A DNA stretch of 44,083 bases, taken from positions 1 through 44,083 of the IMG/VR virus record IMGVR_UViG_3300047476_000542, one strand, 5' to 3'. Source of the stretch: a virus. Both the position numbers and the translations under genes were made by a program. The notes below the pieces were generated by a model. The model saw only the letters and a program-made list of their open reading frames with translations, did no database searches and had not been told where the DNA came from. Of the stretch, positions 25,010 through 38,309 are shown piece after piece (position 1 is the first letter of the stretch; the number at the start of each line of letters is the position of its first letter).

Positions 25010-26869
25010 TTAAACGAAATGTTTATTCTGCTCTAGTAGGGCTTCATCAATATTTATTACAACTCTTCTGCCCATTTCAGCTCGTGAAAGGAACGGATTC
25101 TTCATATGGTGGGTTGCATACTGGCCGTAGTTGAGCATCTCGCGTGCTCGGATCTCACAGAACCATAAGGCCATTACCATATCGGTCTTACCTTTAGTGG
25201 TCGGAGTCCACGTAATCAACTGCTCGATAAGAGCCTTGATGTTTTCGGACTGATCACTAGGTAAATGTATTAAGTTATCTCGGTGGTGCTTTCCGTCTGG
25301 TTGTTTAGTCCCAAAAAGGGTAGACATCGAGGCAACACCGAATCCTGAATCCCACTTATTGCTACCAGTATGGTGTTCCTTGAGGATAACGCCACGTGAA
25401 GCTAGGTGCTGTTTGATTCCTTCGTCTTGAGTTAAGAACGCCTGAAAAGCATTCTTCTCAATAATCCACTCTGAAGGACTATAAAGGCTAGTCCAGTTAA
25501 TAATAATGTCACGAATCTGCTGCGGAGAAGGCCGCGTAATTTTAATAGCATCGAGGATGTACCTTTTAGAAGTGTTACGGTCAATGGCATAAGCGATAGC
25601 GGCGGTATCTCCCACAATGGCTGGGTCCATACCGCAGATAACTGTAAAGCCTTGTACATTTGCTGGGTGTCCTGGGTAACCAGGTTCCAATCGGCCAGCT
25701 TTACGCATACCATCAATCGAACCTTTTACTACTACAGGATCAAAGGCTGCGTTTTCTGAGATGTCTTGCTGCTGATATACCAAAGCCCAGGTACTTGCAT
25801 CCATTGCTTGGCGTTCGTTGTACAAGTTTCGACCAGACCAGCGCGGATAAAGGCCGTTCTCGTCTTTATCGTCTTCACCTTGTCCATCAAAGGGCATATC
25901 TGACTTTGGCCACAAAGTAACCCACTTATCAGGGTCTTCATCTGCTTCTAGCAGGGCTGGCATTGCCAGATATGTCCACGGTACTAACCCACCTGGGTAG
26001 CGATCTTCGGAGCGAAGCTCACGATATAGGTCAATGGAAGCCACACGGGTTCCAATAATAATCAATTTACCAGTAGGGTTAAGACGGGAACGCACGTCTT
26101 GGGTTAACCAGCGGATTTGCTTCTCAAACTCATTGGCGTTCTTCAAAGTAACGGCGTCATCCACAATGATCATATCTGCACGCTTACCGTAAATCTGACC
26201 GCCGATACCGACGGCTTCGATGTTCGGGTCCTTTTCAGATGACTCACGGAGTTCATCACCGAAGGTGACGCGGGTTGCAGCCCACGTAGCTGACTTACTA
26301 TTAAAGCCGACACCAGCGGCGTAAGCCTGCTGGAATGCCTCATACTGTGGGTGGGTCAAACGCTGTTTAATAGCGTAGAGAAAGTCTGCCGCCAACTGCT
26401 GGGTCTGAGAAACAATCAAGACTCGGAAGTTCGGGTTCTGGGCAACCTTCATTGCCACATACTCAACGGTAATGGACATCGACTTGGCGTGGTTCGGCGG
26501 GATGTTGATCAGGATACGGTTGCCGTTAAGACCCTTTTCAAACTTCATATTAGGATGTAACCAAGAAGGTTCCCGACCTTCAATGACATCTACCAGGTTC
26601 TGCTGGTGTGGAAAGACCTTGTGGTTCATATAGCGTTCGCAGAACTCGGCGTAGCTCAAGTCGTGAGCATCGGCTTCAGCAAAGTTCTTGGTCTTCAGGC
26701 CCAGTCTAGTACGGTCTGCCTTATCAGCAAAAGCCTTATCGGATCTGCGGTAGTACTCGTAGGTCTTACCGGACTTGCCAGCTGCGGCGCAAGCCGCCTC
26801 CACTGTCATACCTTCTGCCATAGCGCCGAGAATAATTCTCTTGGCTATATCGGCTGAATTCTCTGCCAC
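25010..26869 (-). CDS. terL: Terminase large subunit with N-terminal small-terminase-like HTH
   Basis: From the GTG at 26867-26869 this is 619 residues. The first 60 (IAKRIILGAMAEGMTVEAAC, KSGKTYEYYRR) resemble the helix-turn-helix of small terminases. The ATPase has a Walker A-like PPNHAKS at about 124-130 and Walker B IIVDDA at about 234-239. An RNase-H-like nuclease begins with GMDPAIVGDTAAIAY at about 413. The enzyme powers DNA packaging and cuts the concatemer. GGAG lies seven bases ahead of this GTG; a GTG at 26896 is in frame but lies inside a terminator hairpin and lacks an SD. No separate small terminase gene is seen, so the fused domain may replace it. Confidence 0.9.
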   Translation of the reverse strand: MAENSADIAKRIILGAMAEGMTVEAACAAAGKSGKTYEYYRRSDKAFADKADRTRLGLKTKNFAEADAHDLSYAEFCERYMNHKVFPHQQNLVDVIEGREPSWLHPNMKFEKGLNGNRILINIPPNHAKSMSITVEYVAMKVAQNPNFRVLIVSQTQQLAADFLYAIKQRLTHPQYEAFQQAYAAGVGFNSKSATWAATRVTFGDELRESSEKDPNIEAVGIGGQIYGKRADMIIVDDAVTLKNANEFEKQIRWLTQDVRSRLNPTGKLIIIGTRVASIDLYRELRSEDRYPGGLVPWTYLAMPALLEADEDPDKWVTLWPKSDMPFDGQGEDDKDENGLYPRWSGRNLYNERQAMDASTWALVYQQQDISENAAFDPVVVKGSIDGMRKAGRLEPGYPGHPANVQGFTVICGMDPAIVGDTAAIAYAIDRNTSKRYILDAIKITRPSPQQIRDIIINWTSLYSPSEWIIEKNAFQAFLTQDEGIKQHLASRGVILKEHHTGSNKWDSGFGVASMSTLFGTKQPDGKHHRDNLIHLPSDQSENIKALIEQLITWTPTTKGKTDMVMALWFCEIRAREMLNYGQYATHHMKNPFLSRAEMGRRVVINIDEALLEQNKHFV

Positions 26870-26885
26870 TGTATCTCCTACTAGT

Positions 26886-26917
26886 AAAAGCCCCACCAGT
26901 CTCGGAAGACGGTGGGG
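26886..26917 (-). terminator. Intrinsic terminator/attenuator immediately before TerL
   Basis: On the minus strand CCCCACC pairs with GGTGGGG (26891-26897 with 26911-26917), and above a single bulged base GTCT pairs with AGAC around a four-base loop (26903-26906). CTTTTA follows. The hairpin ends about 20 bases before the TerL start. A terminator inside a leader, ahead of the first late gene, suggests that readthrough is regulated. Confidence 0.65.
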
Positions 26918-26932
26918 AGCTACATTTACGAT

Positions 26933-26957
26933 GGGCCGAAATCGGCTCTTCTTTTTA
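26933..26957 (+). terminator. Plus-strand intrinsic terminator
   Basis: GGGCCG (26933-26938) pairs with CGGCTC (26943-26948) with one G-U, followed by TTCTTTTTATAC. It reads rightwards, where no plus-strand gene lies to its left. It may stop antisense transcription out of TerL before it enters the control region. Confidence 0.6.
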
Positions 26958-27011
26958 TACTAGGCGGAAGGGTTTTGTCTCAAATACTGGGATTAAGATT
27001 TTAATAGATCT

Positions 27012-27146
27012 TGGCAACCTGTAGCACCGTAAGGTGCTGCTTCGGGCTTAGCGCCCGAACGAGTCACAACGAAGTGAGGGGTAAGACTGTACTCGGCCTA
27101 GGGGCCTCGTTAGAGGCCAACCGTACTGCTCGAAAACTACTTGCCG
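27012..27146 (+). ncRNA. Candidate structured RNA with several hairpins and a closing stem
   Basis: Four hairpins follow each other: 27021-27040 (8 bp with GUAA tetraloop), 27041-27059 (TTCGGGC with GCCCGAA), 27060-27095 (CGAGT with ACTCG) and 27103-27118 (GGCCTC with GAGGCC). UGGCAA at 27012-27017 pairs with UUGCCG at 27141-27146, closing all of them. Two of the pairs are G-U when read as plus-strand RNA but would be A-C on the minus strand, and GUAA is a GNRA loop only on the plus strand, so the plus strand is favoured. A plus-strand terminator follows at 27173. No known RNA family is recognised. Confidence 0.5.
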
Positions 27147-27168
27147 TACTTTTCTTCCCTACTATATA
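27141..27168 (+). promoter_or_regulatory. Promoter-like element in the control region
   Basis: TTGCCG (27141-27146), a 16-base spacer and TATATA (27163-27168) read as a sigma-A-type promoter. The alternating TA box reads equally on the minus strand, where a weak -35 (TATGAC) lies 18 bases away, so a leftward late promoter is also possible. The assignment is by pattern only. Confidence 0.3.
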
Positions 27169-27172
27169 TAAG

Positions 27173-27203
27173 ACGCAACATTAGTGGTCATATTGCGTTT
27201 TTG
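27173..27203 (+). terminator. Plus-strand intrinsic terminator behind the structured RNA candidate
   Basis: ACGCAA (27173-27178) pairs with TTGCGT (27193-27198), followed by TTTTTG. The six-base stem with a 14-base loop is modest, but the T-run is good. It would give the RNA candidate at 27012-27146 a defined 3' end. Confidence 0.5.
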
Positions 27204-27294
27204 TCTTGTGATGTGTAACACAGTACTGTGATCACGGCAAAAGTGCTGGTCAGCAGCTATATCCGGCTTCGACTTTATCAAAAATATTTTATTG

Positions 27295-27310
27295 GGGAGT
27301 ATATACCCCC
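27295..27310. promoter_or_regulatory. Operator-like palindrome
   Basis: GGG, A, GTATATAC, C, CCC form a 16-base inverted repeat with a single mismatched pair, beside an A/T-rich run (27279-27293). A dimeric phage regulator, or a replication initiator, could bind it; WhiB (37971) and the sigma-like protein (33675) are encoded candidates for control in this region. Confidence 0.4.
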
Positions 27311-27333
27311 GCGACAGTAAATTCAACAACGGG

Positions 27334-27440
27334 GGGTCGGCTTTTTGGCGGGGCAGGGCAGGGCAGCCCTTGGCTGCGGTTTGGGTGGACAGTTTGCGGG
27401 GGAATTGTCTGCCGTATGGGGCAGGGCAGTTGGGGTAAGG
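27334..27440 (+). other. G-rich runs with quadruplex potential
   Basis: GGGGGG at about 27334 is followed by GGGG and repeated GGGCA units (27351-27366), then GGGGG (27398-27402), GGGG, GGG and GGGG up to 27436. A hairpin GACAGTT/AATTGTC (27389-27411) presents one of the G-runs in its loop. Four closely spaced G-runs can form a quadruplex on the plus strand; such structures occur at replication and transcription control sites. Confidence 0.45.
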
Positions 27441-27450
27441 CGGGAAGGAC

Positions 27451-27718
27451 ACTAACTAACCGGCACAGCTAACCGGCTCTCTCTCTAACCCCTAACCCTT
27501 TTAATATCTCCCAATACCTAACCGATAGCCACCGGCCTACCTCCACCGGCTAGCCGATAGCCCTAACCCTTAGCCGGTGATAGCTCCACTATCTGCCACC
27601 GATTACCGGCTAACCCTTGTACCTCCCGGCCACCGGCTAACCCGGCACCGGCTACCTATCCCCACCTAATCGCCGGGCCTAACCCTGCCACCGGGCCACC
27701 GATAGCTCATATATAAAT
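27451..27718 (+). repeat. C/A-rich array of short iteron-like repeats
   Basis: About 270 bases with little G are built from imperfect copies of CTAACC (nine), ACCGGC (seven) and CCGATAGC (three), often joined as CACCGGCTAACCC. The spacing is irregular, so it is not a simple tandem repeat or CRISPR. Strong strand asymmetry and clustering of one family of words next to an A/T-rich patch are typical of replication origins or multi-operator control regions. Confidence 0.6.
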
Positions 27719-27874
27719 TGGATCGTGTACCTATTTACCCGGCAATACCGCCGGCGATACCCTTGAAGATAATTGGATAAATCTTCCCATAAGAGTTGAA
27801 AGGTATGCGCTAGTACGTTACCCTCTACCTAGTGGAATAGCTCCACCGCATTACATATCGAAAGAGGTTTTAAT

Positions 27875-28246
27875 ATGTCTATTATGTGTGAAGAATGCAA
27901 GTGTTCAGTATTCAATAGCGATAGCGGTTGCGATAATGGTTGCGGATGTTGCAACCGTGAGGGAATTATGGAATTACTAGCAACACGTACCGCGCAACTC
28001 TTAGCTATTACGGAAGATGACCGCGATGAATACAGCGATGAAAACCCTATCTTTCACGCAGAACAAGGCCCTAGCCGCTTTTATATTATGTCTATGTTTT
28101 TTACTGATAATGACGGCGTAAGAATTCAAGAAGACTTAGATGTTAATGAGATTACCGTGACCCTCTTTAATGAAGAGACAGAACAAGAGCTAACTGAGGG
28201 CGCACTATATGAGTGGGCCATTAATCACTACAAGGAGAACAACTAA
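27875..28246 (+). CDS. First early gene: Cys-rich N-terminus, acidic protein
   Basis: This 123-residue protein opens with a cluster of cysteines (CEECKCSVFNSDSGCDNGCG, then CC) that probably binds metal, followed by an acidic domain (EDDRDEYSDENPIFHAEQGP) and a helix. ATG at 27875 has AAAGAGG eight bases upstream. As the first gene behind the control region it is a candidate host-takeover or regulatory protein; I recognise no family. The TAA overlaps the next ATG. Confidence 0.7.
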   Translation: MSIMCEECKCSVFNSDSGCDNGCGCCNREGIMELLATRTAQLLAITEDDRDEYSDENPIFHAEQGPSRFYIMSMFFTDNDGVRIQEDLDVNEITVTLFNEETEQELTEGALYEWAINHYKENN

Positions 28247-33460: not shown

Positions 33461-33678
33461 TCAAGCTCCTTCTCAATAGCCTGAATGGTAGAGCAAGGAT
33501 AATCGTCAACACATTCTTCGCAGGTTGGAACGTGTTCTCTATCGCATTCACAATTTTCTTCCATTGGCTTATGCAATTCCGCTACTGCACGAAGGGCATA
33601 CAACCTTTGTAATGGTGATGAGCCAGCATAACCATTCTCATCGTTACTTAACTTCGCCAGCAATTCATCGTGTGTCAC
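33457..33678 (-). CDS. Small Cys-containing protein, MTHDELLAK family (copy 2)
   Basis: A 73-residue protein starting MTHDELLAKLSNDENGYAGS with LRAVAELHKP, CECDREHVPTCEEC and YPCSTIQAIEKELE. The same beginning and end occur in the gene at 34300-34554. These small proteins are common in actinophages; the Cys pairs may bind zinc. Function unknown. ATGA overlaps on both sides. Confidence 0.75.
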   Translation of the reverse strand: MTHDELLAKLSNDENGYAGSSPLQRLYALRAVAELHKPMEENCECDREHVPTCEECVDDYPCSTIQAIEKELE

Positions 33679-34307
33679 TGATAGGGAGACCTTCCACCTA
33701 GTAGGTCTAGTAACTCACGCATAGCGTGGTCACATCTGCGATCTGCAGTGGTTGGATGACACTCTAACGCTGCACCAATCTGTGCAAGAGTCATACGTTC
33801 GTGATAGCGCAGCGTAAGTATCTGCCTATCTTCTGCTTGTAACTTAACAAACTTCTGCTTGATATCCATCAGCGTAGCAAGCAATGACCCGCCTTCAGCT
33901 GGGCTGCTTGACCCTCTAGGCTGGCCATCTAAGATCATCTCTTGTGCTGCTTCTAATACTGTTCCATCTATCACCGAAGCAATAACAAAAGGTAGCAACG
34001 TTGCAAGGGTAGCAGTCTGATAGAAGGCTTCATCACCCGGCTGATAGCCAGAGCGTATTGCCTTCTCTTTGCGACAGTAACGTTCAGCAATACGTGTCAT
34101 CTGCCACGCCAGCTTCTGCTCGTTATGCTTACGCTTTTCTGTATCAGGTTCGTTGAGTTGTTCTTCGATCCACTTGGTTCTACTCAATGCCCAGATGTAA
34201 CACTCTTGCTTGACATCATTCTTATCTACCCAAGCTTGATACTTCCTAGATACAACCCTAGATACACTAGGGATCAGTTCATCTATGAACGGGTGAACAT
34301 CAGTCAT
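33675..34307 (-). CDS. Sigma-70-like RNA polymerase sigma factor
   Basis: A 210-residue protein with a region-2-like start (SRKYQAWVDKNDVKQECYIW) and a region-4 helix-turn-helix near the end (LQAEDRQILTLRYHERMTLA, then QIGAALECHPTTADRRCDHA). The middle is variable and acidic. It probably redirects host RNA polymerase to phage promoters. It is flanked by the two copies of the MTHDELLAK family. Whether it still binds core polymerase is not clear, as region 2 is weak. ATG at 34307; overlaps of 8 and 4 bases with neighbours. Confidence 0.75.
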   Translation of the reverse strand: MTDVHPFIDELIPSVSRVVSRKYQAWVDKNDVKQECYIWALSRTKWIEEQLNEPDTEKRKHNEQKLAWQMTRIAERYCRKEKAIRSGYQPGDEAFYQTATLATLLPFVIASVIDGTVLEAAQEMILDGQPRGSSSPAEGGSLLATLMDIKQKFVKLQAEDRQILTLRYHERMTLAQIGAALECHPTTADRRCDHAMRELLDLLGGRSPYQ

Positions 34308-37148: not shown

Positions 37149-38029
37149 TCGTCAATCTCATTTCCGTACTCATCGTACTGTGGTATGTAATTGTTACTGG
37201 TATGACCAGCTCTAGCATCTCTTTCTAGCATAGCTCCAAAGGCATTTCTATCTGAGATTTGGCAAGACCCATAGTTTACTTTCAAACCTACATAGTCTGA
37301 GGCATCTGCTGTATGTGGACCAAAGCGGTTCTTAACAGCGGCAATGTTCAGGTCTGCATTGAATGGGTCATAGCCTAGCGTTAGGATCAGTGCAGGTAAC
37401 TGACTGACCTTACCGTGGATAGCACGTCTAGCAGGTGGCTTGGTAGGCGATCCATACTCTGATTGCTCAGAGACGTGGTGCAATACCAGTACACACGCTT
37501 CTGTCTTACGTGCCATATCGTGAAGCTCCATCATAATTGCACGCAGTCCAGCCCATTCATTATCTGTCTCGGCTGCTACGTTCATTAAGTTATCTATGAT
37601 GATTAACTCTGGTGCCTCACCGTAGAGTTCTACGTAGGCTTTAATCTCTAACTCGATATCATCTAGTGATGGTGATGAATCAAAGACCCACTTGATGTGC
37701 TTCAGTTTGTCAAAGTGCTTATCGTAATAGTGGCTGTCTGCCGATAGGTTCTGCTCAACACCTGTCTGATTGTGACCGGATGAGTGTGCTGCTGCACGCA
37801 TCATCACGGTAGTAGTATCAGTATCAGCTGAAAAGAACAAGGTAGGTACCTGTGCCTTGATTGCATACACCAAAGCAAACATAGACTTACCAGCGTTGGG
37901 TGCGGCTGCAACCATACAGACCTGTCCTCTACGGAACTGGATCTGCTTGGTTGCTAGCCCCTTCCAAACATCAGGTAGAGGTGTGGCCTTCGTGAGAACT
38001 GTTCCCCACGCCCGTTGCAAAGTTAACAA
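37145..38029 (-). CDS. DnaB/RecA-fold replicative helicase-like ATPase
   Basis: A 294-residue RecA-core protein: Walker A APNAGKS (43-49), LFFSADTDTTTVMMRAAAHS, Walker B LIIIDNL (142-148), VLVLHHVSEQS as sensor His motif and RRAIHGKVSQLPALILTL later. It lacks the DnaB N-terminal domain, so it resembles short actinophage DnaB-like helicases. It probably unwinds the fork or loads with the split primase. Start TTG (38027-38029) lies in the WhiB gene behind AAGGAGG, a strong SD; overlap 59 bases. Confidence 0.8.
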   Translation of the reverse strand: MLTLQRAWGTVLTKATPLPDVWKGLATKQIQFRRGQVCMVAAAPNAGKSMFALVYAIKAQVPTLFFSADTDTTTVMMRAAAHSSGHNQTGVEQNLSADSHYYDKHFDKLKHIKWVFDSSPSLDDIELEIKAYVELYGEAPELIIIDNLMNVAAETDNEWAGLRAIMMELHDMARKTEACVLVLHHVSEQSEYGSPTKPPARRAIHGKVSQLPALILTLGYDPFNADLNIAAVKNRFGPHTADASDYVGLKVNYGSCQISDRNAFGAMLERDARAGHTSNNYIPQYDEYGNEIDE

Positions 38030-38309
38030 CGCCCACCTCCTTTACCGTTATATTGAGACGCCTGCGAATTGGTTCACGCTCACCTTCGGTAAGCCCTCCC
38101 CATATTCCAAATCGCTCGTGCTCTAGCCCCCATTGCTTACATTCAGTTTTGTGAATGCAGCTATTACAAACTGACTTAGCGAGTAGAACTTCTGGTGCTG
38201 AGTAACTAAAAAGTTTGATCTCACTTGCATCAAGACTTCTTTCAGGAAACCAGAACTCTCCTCCTACTGAAGCGCACCCTGGACTTTCATAATTCCAAGG
38301 CTCGCGCAT
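37971..38309 (-). CDS. WhiB-family iron-sulfur transcription factor
   Basis: A 112-residue protein with the four cluster-binding cysteines C12, C48, C51 and C57 (VCNSCIHKTEC), the GIWGG turn (68-72) and basic RRRLN region for DNA contact. WhiB proteins bind a [4Fe-4S] cluster and act with the primary sigma factor in actinobacteria; phage versions can alter host gene expression and exclusion. It is the main taxonomic marker in this window. Its 3' end carries the SD of the helicase gene. ATG start at 38309. Confidence 0.9.
   Translation of the reverse strand: MREPWNYESPGCASVGGEFWFPERSLDASEIKLFSYSAPEVLLAKSVCNSCIHKTECKQWGLEHERFGIWGGLTEGEREPIRRRLNITVKEVGVVNFATGVGNSSHEGHTST

Follow-up and report, generated by a model that had tools for sequence, protein, structure and literature searches.

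Among the described systems closest to the element studied here, CopA/CopT of R1 and the phage oop RNA are structured antisense RNAs that are convergent with and complementary to the leader of their target and end near the target promoter. The phi29 pRNA is a phage packaging RNA that is encoded near the genome end and needed by the packaging ATPase. To our knowledge, very few small RNAs of actinobacterial phages have been described, and none were found, in the papers searched, for the phage group considered below. The put RNAs are about 70 nt long, consist of two stem-loops, and suppress both intrinsic and Rho-dependent termination (PMC9378689). The put RNA of phage HK022 (putL, putR) binds the beta-prime zinc-binding domain of the polymerase and suppresses termination. 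GOLLD and ROOL are ornate non-coding RNAs, some of which come from lake metagenomes and phages (PMC12286853).

The element lies at 27012-27203 of the IMG/VR virus record IMGVR_UViG_3300047476_000542, the whole of which (44,083 bp) was analyzed and is called the window. It occupies a non-coding stretch with TerL, the large terminase gene, on the minus strand on one side and a cos-like site on the other; the rightward genes begin beyond this stretch, at 27875. Its layout, judged from sequence, appears to be the convergent, leader-complementary one of CopA/CopT and oop, from which it differs by a strongly conserved loop. Like HK022 put RNA, it is short, built of stem-loops and placed in a phage control region, and it could act on the polymerase in cis. 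However, put is present in two copies behind early promoters, whereas the core hairpin of the element (PA) occurs once in the window, by pattern as well as by covariance model, and antisense to TerL; no relationship by sequence was shown. PA and hairpins P2 and P3 together span 27051-27118 (~68 nt), in a fold that differs from the published put fold and could not be aligned with put RNA. Like phi29 pRNA, the element is encoded near a (here putative) genome end, but the types of terminase and of genome end differ. GOLLD and ROOL are likewise non-coding but large RNAs. The element matches no Rfam family: the window yielded no match at the gathering threshold in Rfam 15 (4227 families), and a permissive search of 26880-27880 yielded just two sub-threshold matches, both outside the element. 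No tRNA or tmRNA genes were detected in the window by ARAGORN. The features of the locus are as follows.

25010-26896, minus strand: TerL, neighbor of the element in all relatives.
27021-27040, plus strand: hp1, a GNRA hairpin (GTAGCACC-GTAA-GGTGCTGC).
27041-27059, tentatively plus strand: hp2, TTCGGGC-TTAGC-GCCCGAA.
27051-27082, plus strand: PA, the 32-nt core hairpin, supported by compensatory changes with controls, unaided RNAalifold, G.A replacement and a covariance model.
27095-27106, plus strand: P2, GGCC-TAGG-GGCC, less well supported than PA.
27103-27118, plus strand: P3, GGCCTC-GTTA-GAGGCC with a GNNA loop, from the reading of 102 sequences.
27132-27154, minus strand: P4 hairpin, just inside the putative start of the TerL transcript.
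27157-27174, no strand assigned: near-invariant CCCTACTATATATAAGAC, from the alignment.
27161-27166, minus strand: -10-like TATAGT inside CCCTACTATATATAAGAC, a putative promoter element.
27173-27204, plus strand: P5, inverted repeat ACGCAA..TTGCGT with a T-run; the repeat is kept while its sequence differs by lineage.
27207-27222, no strand assigned: CRP/GlxR-like palindrome TGTGATGTGTAACACA, centered at about -61 from the putative minus-strand start.
27440-27469, no strand assigned: cos-like site, candidate virion DNA end, placed in the window by analogy.

The closest named relatives of the TerL protein were those of Planktophila phages (ct2KA10, 46-47%) and Streptomyces phages (44%; Immanuel3, 46% identity). 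The window also codes for a portal, a major head protein, a DnaB-like helicase, an exonuclease, a sigma region-4 protein (33675-34307) and a WhiB protein (37974-38309). WhiB counts as a marker of actinophages (PMC10202952), which makes an actinobacterial host likely. The hosts of the large group of uncultured viruses carrying the element are probably actinobacteria. For Planktophila, relatives of this phage group have been brought into culture (PMC10202952); the element was not present in detectable form in the two isolates.

More than 160 IMG/VR contigs yielded control regions related to 27012-27203. A TerL search of IMG/VR gave 80 loci, and the element was matched in nearly every one with enough upstream flank; an exact 19-base core pattern gave at least 120 stretches, and a TerL profile search added more distant relatives. 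In four of these (L258, L259, L264 and L267), an extra reading frame, which could encode a small terminase subunit, apparently lies between TerL and the control region. TerL was located to the left of the element and on the opposite strand in all 163 distinct sequences with a placeable TerL start, at 190-790 bp from the core. When queried by blastn against named phages, the control region gave no match, neither a TerL relative nor the PA pattern was found in a bacterial genome collection, and the covariance model detected nothing up to E = 5 in Immanuel3 (L199) and Planktophila phage F5 (L200).

PA was the best-supported part of the element. Its outer part consists of G51.U82, C52-G81, a bulged G53 and CCC54-56 paired with GGG78-80; the middle part of tandem G.A pairs (57.77 and 58.76), A59-U75 and C60-G74; and the apical part of an internal loop (GA/GAA), G63-C70, U64-A69 and the loop CACA. 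The window segment folded alone adopted exactly this structure (-7.0 kcal/mol). Among 46 distinct sequences, pair 27059-27075 was A-U in 26, G-C in 11, G-U in nine and A-C in none; pair 27060-27074 was C-G in 27, G-C in 16, U-A in one, U-G in one and mismatched in one; and pair 27064-27069 was C-G in 40, U-A in four and U-G in two. The covariation score of PA was 0.255, compared to 0.118 in shuffles (none of 500 as high) and at most 0.039 in slid controls. When 102 sequences were read by eye, two PA positions always co-varied, and a count showed pairing in all 102 (AG/CT 49, GC/GC 15, GG/CT 13, GC/GT 11, AC/GT 10 and four rarer). When the tree was computed with the PA columns left out, we counted 18 joint changes at the inner pair (27060-27074) and, at the outer one, 14 changes from A-U to G-U with none to A-C; recombination may inflate these counts of independent changes. 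When covariation was scanned without guidance against a tree null, 27060-27074 ranked first, above every null value, and no other pair in that scan reached significance. RNAalifold run on the focused alignment alone predicted PA and added two pairs, one of them A-U in 15 and G-U in 31 sequences. A global RNAalifold run of the full alignment over the whole region was weak; differences in length and competition between hairpins made it uninformative.

The tandem G.A layer between the two stems of PA was present in 43 of the 46 sequences. In three relatives that came from the TerL search and were not selected by RNA features (L235, L264 and L273), this layer was swapped for Watson-Crick pairs, TC/GA or TT/AA (U-A/C-G or U-A/U-A). 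A dedicated scan found such replacement in 11 contigs, which were chosen for pairing and are thus not independent evidence. A lineage of about 14 sequences (e.g., L019 and L030) carries a short hairpin, CCGC-ATTTA-GYGG, in place of PA. A K-turn reading of the tandem G.A pairs was ruled out, as the three-base bulge is absent. Since G-U is tolerated and A-C absent, the plus strand is the strand that folds, and the sheared G.A pairs and GNNA loops point the same way. Single-stranded DNA of the plus strand, if structured, would leave the same G-U signal. PA is very probably a real conserved structured element or RNA of the plus strand. The PA loop and AGGGGTAA were conserved well beyond the needs of base pairing. 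The first-pass annotation had called this region a possible new structured RNA and had named a lack of covariation among relatives as one refutation; PA does show covariation. The plus-strand compensatory changes, the constant genomic position and the lack of an Rfam match support the claim. That no protein frame fits also held: the region is non-coding, and no frame survives the indels across lineages.

On the minus strand, P4 starts right behind the TATAGT at 27161-27166. Of 118 distinct sequences, 108 gave a more stable P4 as minus RNA and seven as plus RNA, and its G-U pairs numbered 110 on minus versus 31 on plus. In relatives it takes the form GGG-GA-stem-GA-CCC, with a sequence that differs between lineages while the pairing is kept. 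It was flanked by GA..GA on minus (TC..TC on plus) in 62 of 121 sequences, the same architecture as in PA. The CRP/GlxR-like site scored at least 8/10 in all 169 relatives tested, compared to 3.8% in shuffles, and 27207-27222 was the only 9/10 site in the window. Its offset from the core was 31-32 bases in 108 relatives, 45-47 in 57 and 26 in four; the two main classes differ by 15 bases, which does not correspond to an integral number of helical turns. Upstream of TerL, Streptomyces phage Immanuel3 carries the same two signals, TGTGACGTAGAACACA and TATAGT, at similar spacing. Two CRP/GlxR-like palindromes were noted upstream of TerL in Immanuel3, and also near TerL in Planktophila phage F5. 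P4, TATAGT, the CRP-like site and the Immanuel3 signals together make a minus-strand promoter for TerL likely, with the element as its leader reversed. The CRP/GlxR-like sites suggest, at the level of sequence, host cAMP-type regulation of these phages.

The remaining parts of the element were less uniform. Hairpin hp2 (27041-27059) was confirmed, with a stem of at least 5 bp in 97 of 119 distinct sequences (82%) versus 5% in shuffles. Because it draws on the 5′ strand of PA, only one of the two hairpins can form at a time, and hp2 could be a switch partner of PA or a folding intermediate. P2 and P3 showed lineage-specific compensations, but they overlap each other and align poorly. Pair 27096-27105 of P2 was G-C, T-A or C-G by lineage, with several sequences unpaired in this alignment, and its region includes a conserved CCTAGGGG. 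In place of P3, other lineages have a longer stem with a GAA/GAA or GTA/GTA internal loop. Many sequences could pair the conserved UAUCCCC block with GGGGUA over a long range (88 of 119 have the motif), but the 3′ side hardly varies and PA uses the same GGGG, and this pairing was set aside.

The four-hairpin fold of the first-pass annotation differs for the most part from the conserved fold, and some of the structure belongs to the opposite strand. Within the set of sequences read, its GNRA hairpin (hp1) occurred only in the window and the close relative L004, with unrelated hairpins or none at that position in other lineages. Its third hairpin (UCAC-AACGAA-GUGA) is not the conserved form, the same bases making PA instead. 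The enclosing long-range stem was dropped as not conserved, relatives having a different conserved block, ATAGAACTATCCCCACTAAAAG, at that place. Folding energy alone could not pick a strand: 27000-27215 (216 nt) gave z-scores of -2.54 for the plus RNA and -3.67 for the minus RNA. The statement that G-U pairs fit only the plus strand applies to PA, fails for 27132-27154, where minus RNA is more stable, and is mixed for the P5 hairpin (27173-27198), where counts of pairs and G-U favor neither strand. As for the terminator said to follow, a hairpin with a T-run does lie at 27173-27204 and is a candidate plus-RNA terminator or operator, but with mixed G-U counts it is not decisive proof of termination. 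The T-run follows P5 in most lineages and is missing in several.

An RNA that is cis-antisense is expected to lie opposite the leader of its target, to have a fold of its own with strand selection, and to be transcribed and pair with the target RNA. As to the first two, the element is antisense upstream of TerL in all 163 placeable sequences, and compensatory changes maintain the PA pairs with a preference for plus RNA. Three features favor a regulatory RNA acting on the TerL/late leader: an antisense position that never varies, the close spacing of the TerL start and the putative promoter (down to 190 bp), and the plus-strand fold. We therefore propose, with a probability of roughly 0.35-0.38, a previously undescribed phage RNA family in which a plus-strand regulatory RNA controls packaging and late genes. 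A small RNA containing PA would be encoded between the TerL start and the putative TerL/late promoter, beginning upstream of ~27020 and ending at P5 (~27204). It would be complementary to the 5′ leader of a TerL/late transcript starting near 27154 and could act on that transcript by leader pairing, convergent transcription or both. Late and packaging genes would be held down until an activator at the CRP/GlxR-like site switches the late promoter on. A pure antisense RNA has no need of so conserved a loop, which points to a further partner; a protein or a second RNA may contact the PA loop, and the exclusivity of hp2 and PA may provide a two-state switch. Speaking against control of the leader, the P5 T-run is missing in some lineages and PA is replaced in one. 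We also looked for a plus promoter upstream of the element and identified none; there is little conservation upstream, and no clear -10 is present in the conserved block. That the hp2/PA switch and a CRP/GlxR-dependent late promoter form a new class of control RNA, with host signals and RNA together timing packaging and late expression in abundant uncultured actinophages, seems rather unlikely.

It is possible, if somewhat unlikely, that the element is instead a cis-acting leader of a rightward plus transcript that would run, on circularized DNA, through P5, the cos-like site and the C-rich stretch into the genes from 27875. Within such a leader, the hairpins might modify RNA polymerase like HK022 put RNA, or form a riboswitch or attenuator on P5. 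Compact conserved hairpins upstream of a terminator-like hairpin would suit it, the layout would permit such a put-like leader as well, and the plus strand of 27500-27699 is rich in C and poor in G (GC skew -0.44 and -0.40), the kind of sequence that Rho uses. However, transcription would have to cross the cos-like site and 670 nt between P5 and the first rightward gene, the window has a single PA copy versus two in HK022, and no promoter was found upstream. A trans-acting small RNA or protein-binding RNA, with a PA loop that binds a phage or host protein to regulate elsewhere and an adjacency to TerL that is historical, would account for conservation of the PA loop and AGGGGTAA far exceeding pairing needs, but leaves the invariant position opposite TerL (163/163) unexplained, and we consider it distinctly unlikely.

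The location between TerL and the cos-like site would also fit a packaging or replication element, either RNA or plus single-stranded DNA (which would tolerate G-T wobble too), serving the terminase in a role like that of phi29 pRNA or priming. This is unlikely: the element lies ~250 bp from the cos-like site amid promoter-like signals, evidence of an origin is lacking, and we know of no packaging RNA in cos-type tailed phages. Conserved DNA operator or promoter motifs that resemble hairpins by chance would dispense with an RNA altogether. Several conserved blocks (the core, the CRP-like site and perhaps P5) are probably DNA signals, and the global RNAalifold result was weak, but the PA pairs co-change in all distinct sequences except one, with G-U allowed and A-C never seen, and Watson-Crick pairs stand in for the G.A layer in three relatives, which makes a DNA-only explanation very improbable. 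If the regulatory RNA proposed above does control the late switch, it would be the first RNA-level timing mechanism in these abundant viruses. PA is compact, covaries on both sides and keeps its place next to the terminase across many uncultured phages, and is a ready test object.

Of 55 nearby right ends of contigs, 17 clustered at 250-299 bp to the right of the core, and several of these ends share one motif, GGGC..C^T..CGGC, which is a candidate cos site of the phage group. To the right of the cos-like site, the plus strand of 27470-27700 is C-rich and G-poor with ACCGGCTAACC-like repeats; this stretch could be a region of Rho use or hold terminase binding sites. Just upstream of the TerL ribosome site, a GC-rich hairpin (CCCCACC..GGTGGGG, 26892-26916) with a T-run on minus was not seen in most relatives. 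Between TerL and the element, 26956-26996 and the corresponding stretch of relatives contain two to three copies of TACTAGGC / TACTGGGC motifs, which could be operator sites. Finally, an AT-rich, partly palindromic block, CACTTTAGCAAATATTTTTT..GGGGAGTATATACCCC, at 27285-27315 was conserved in all lineages.
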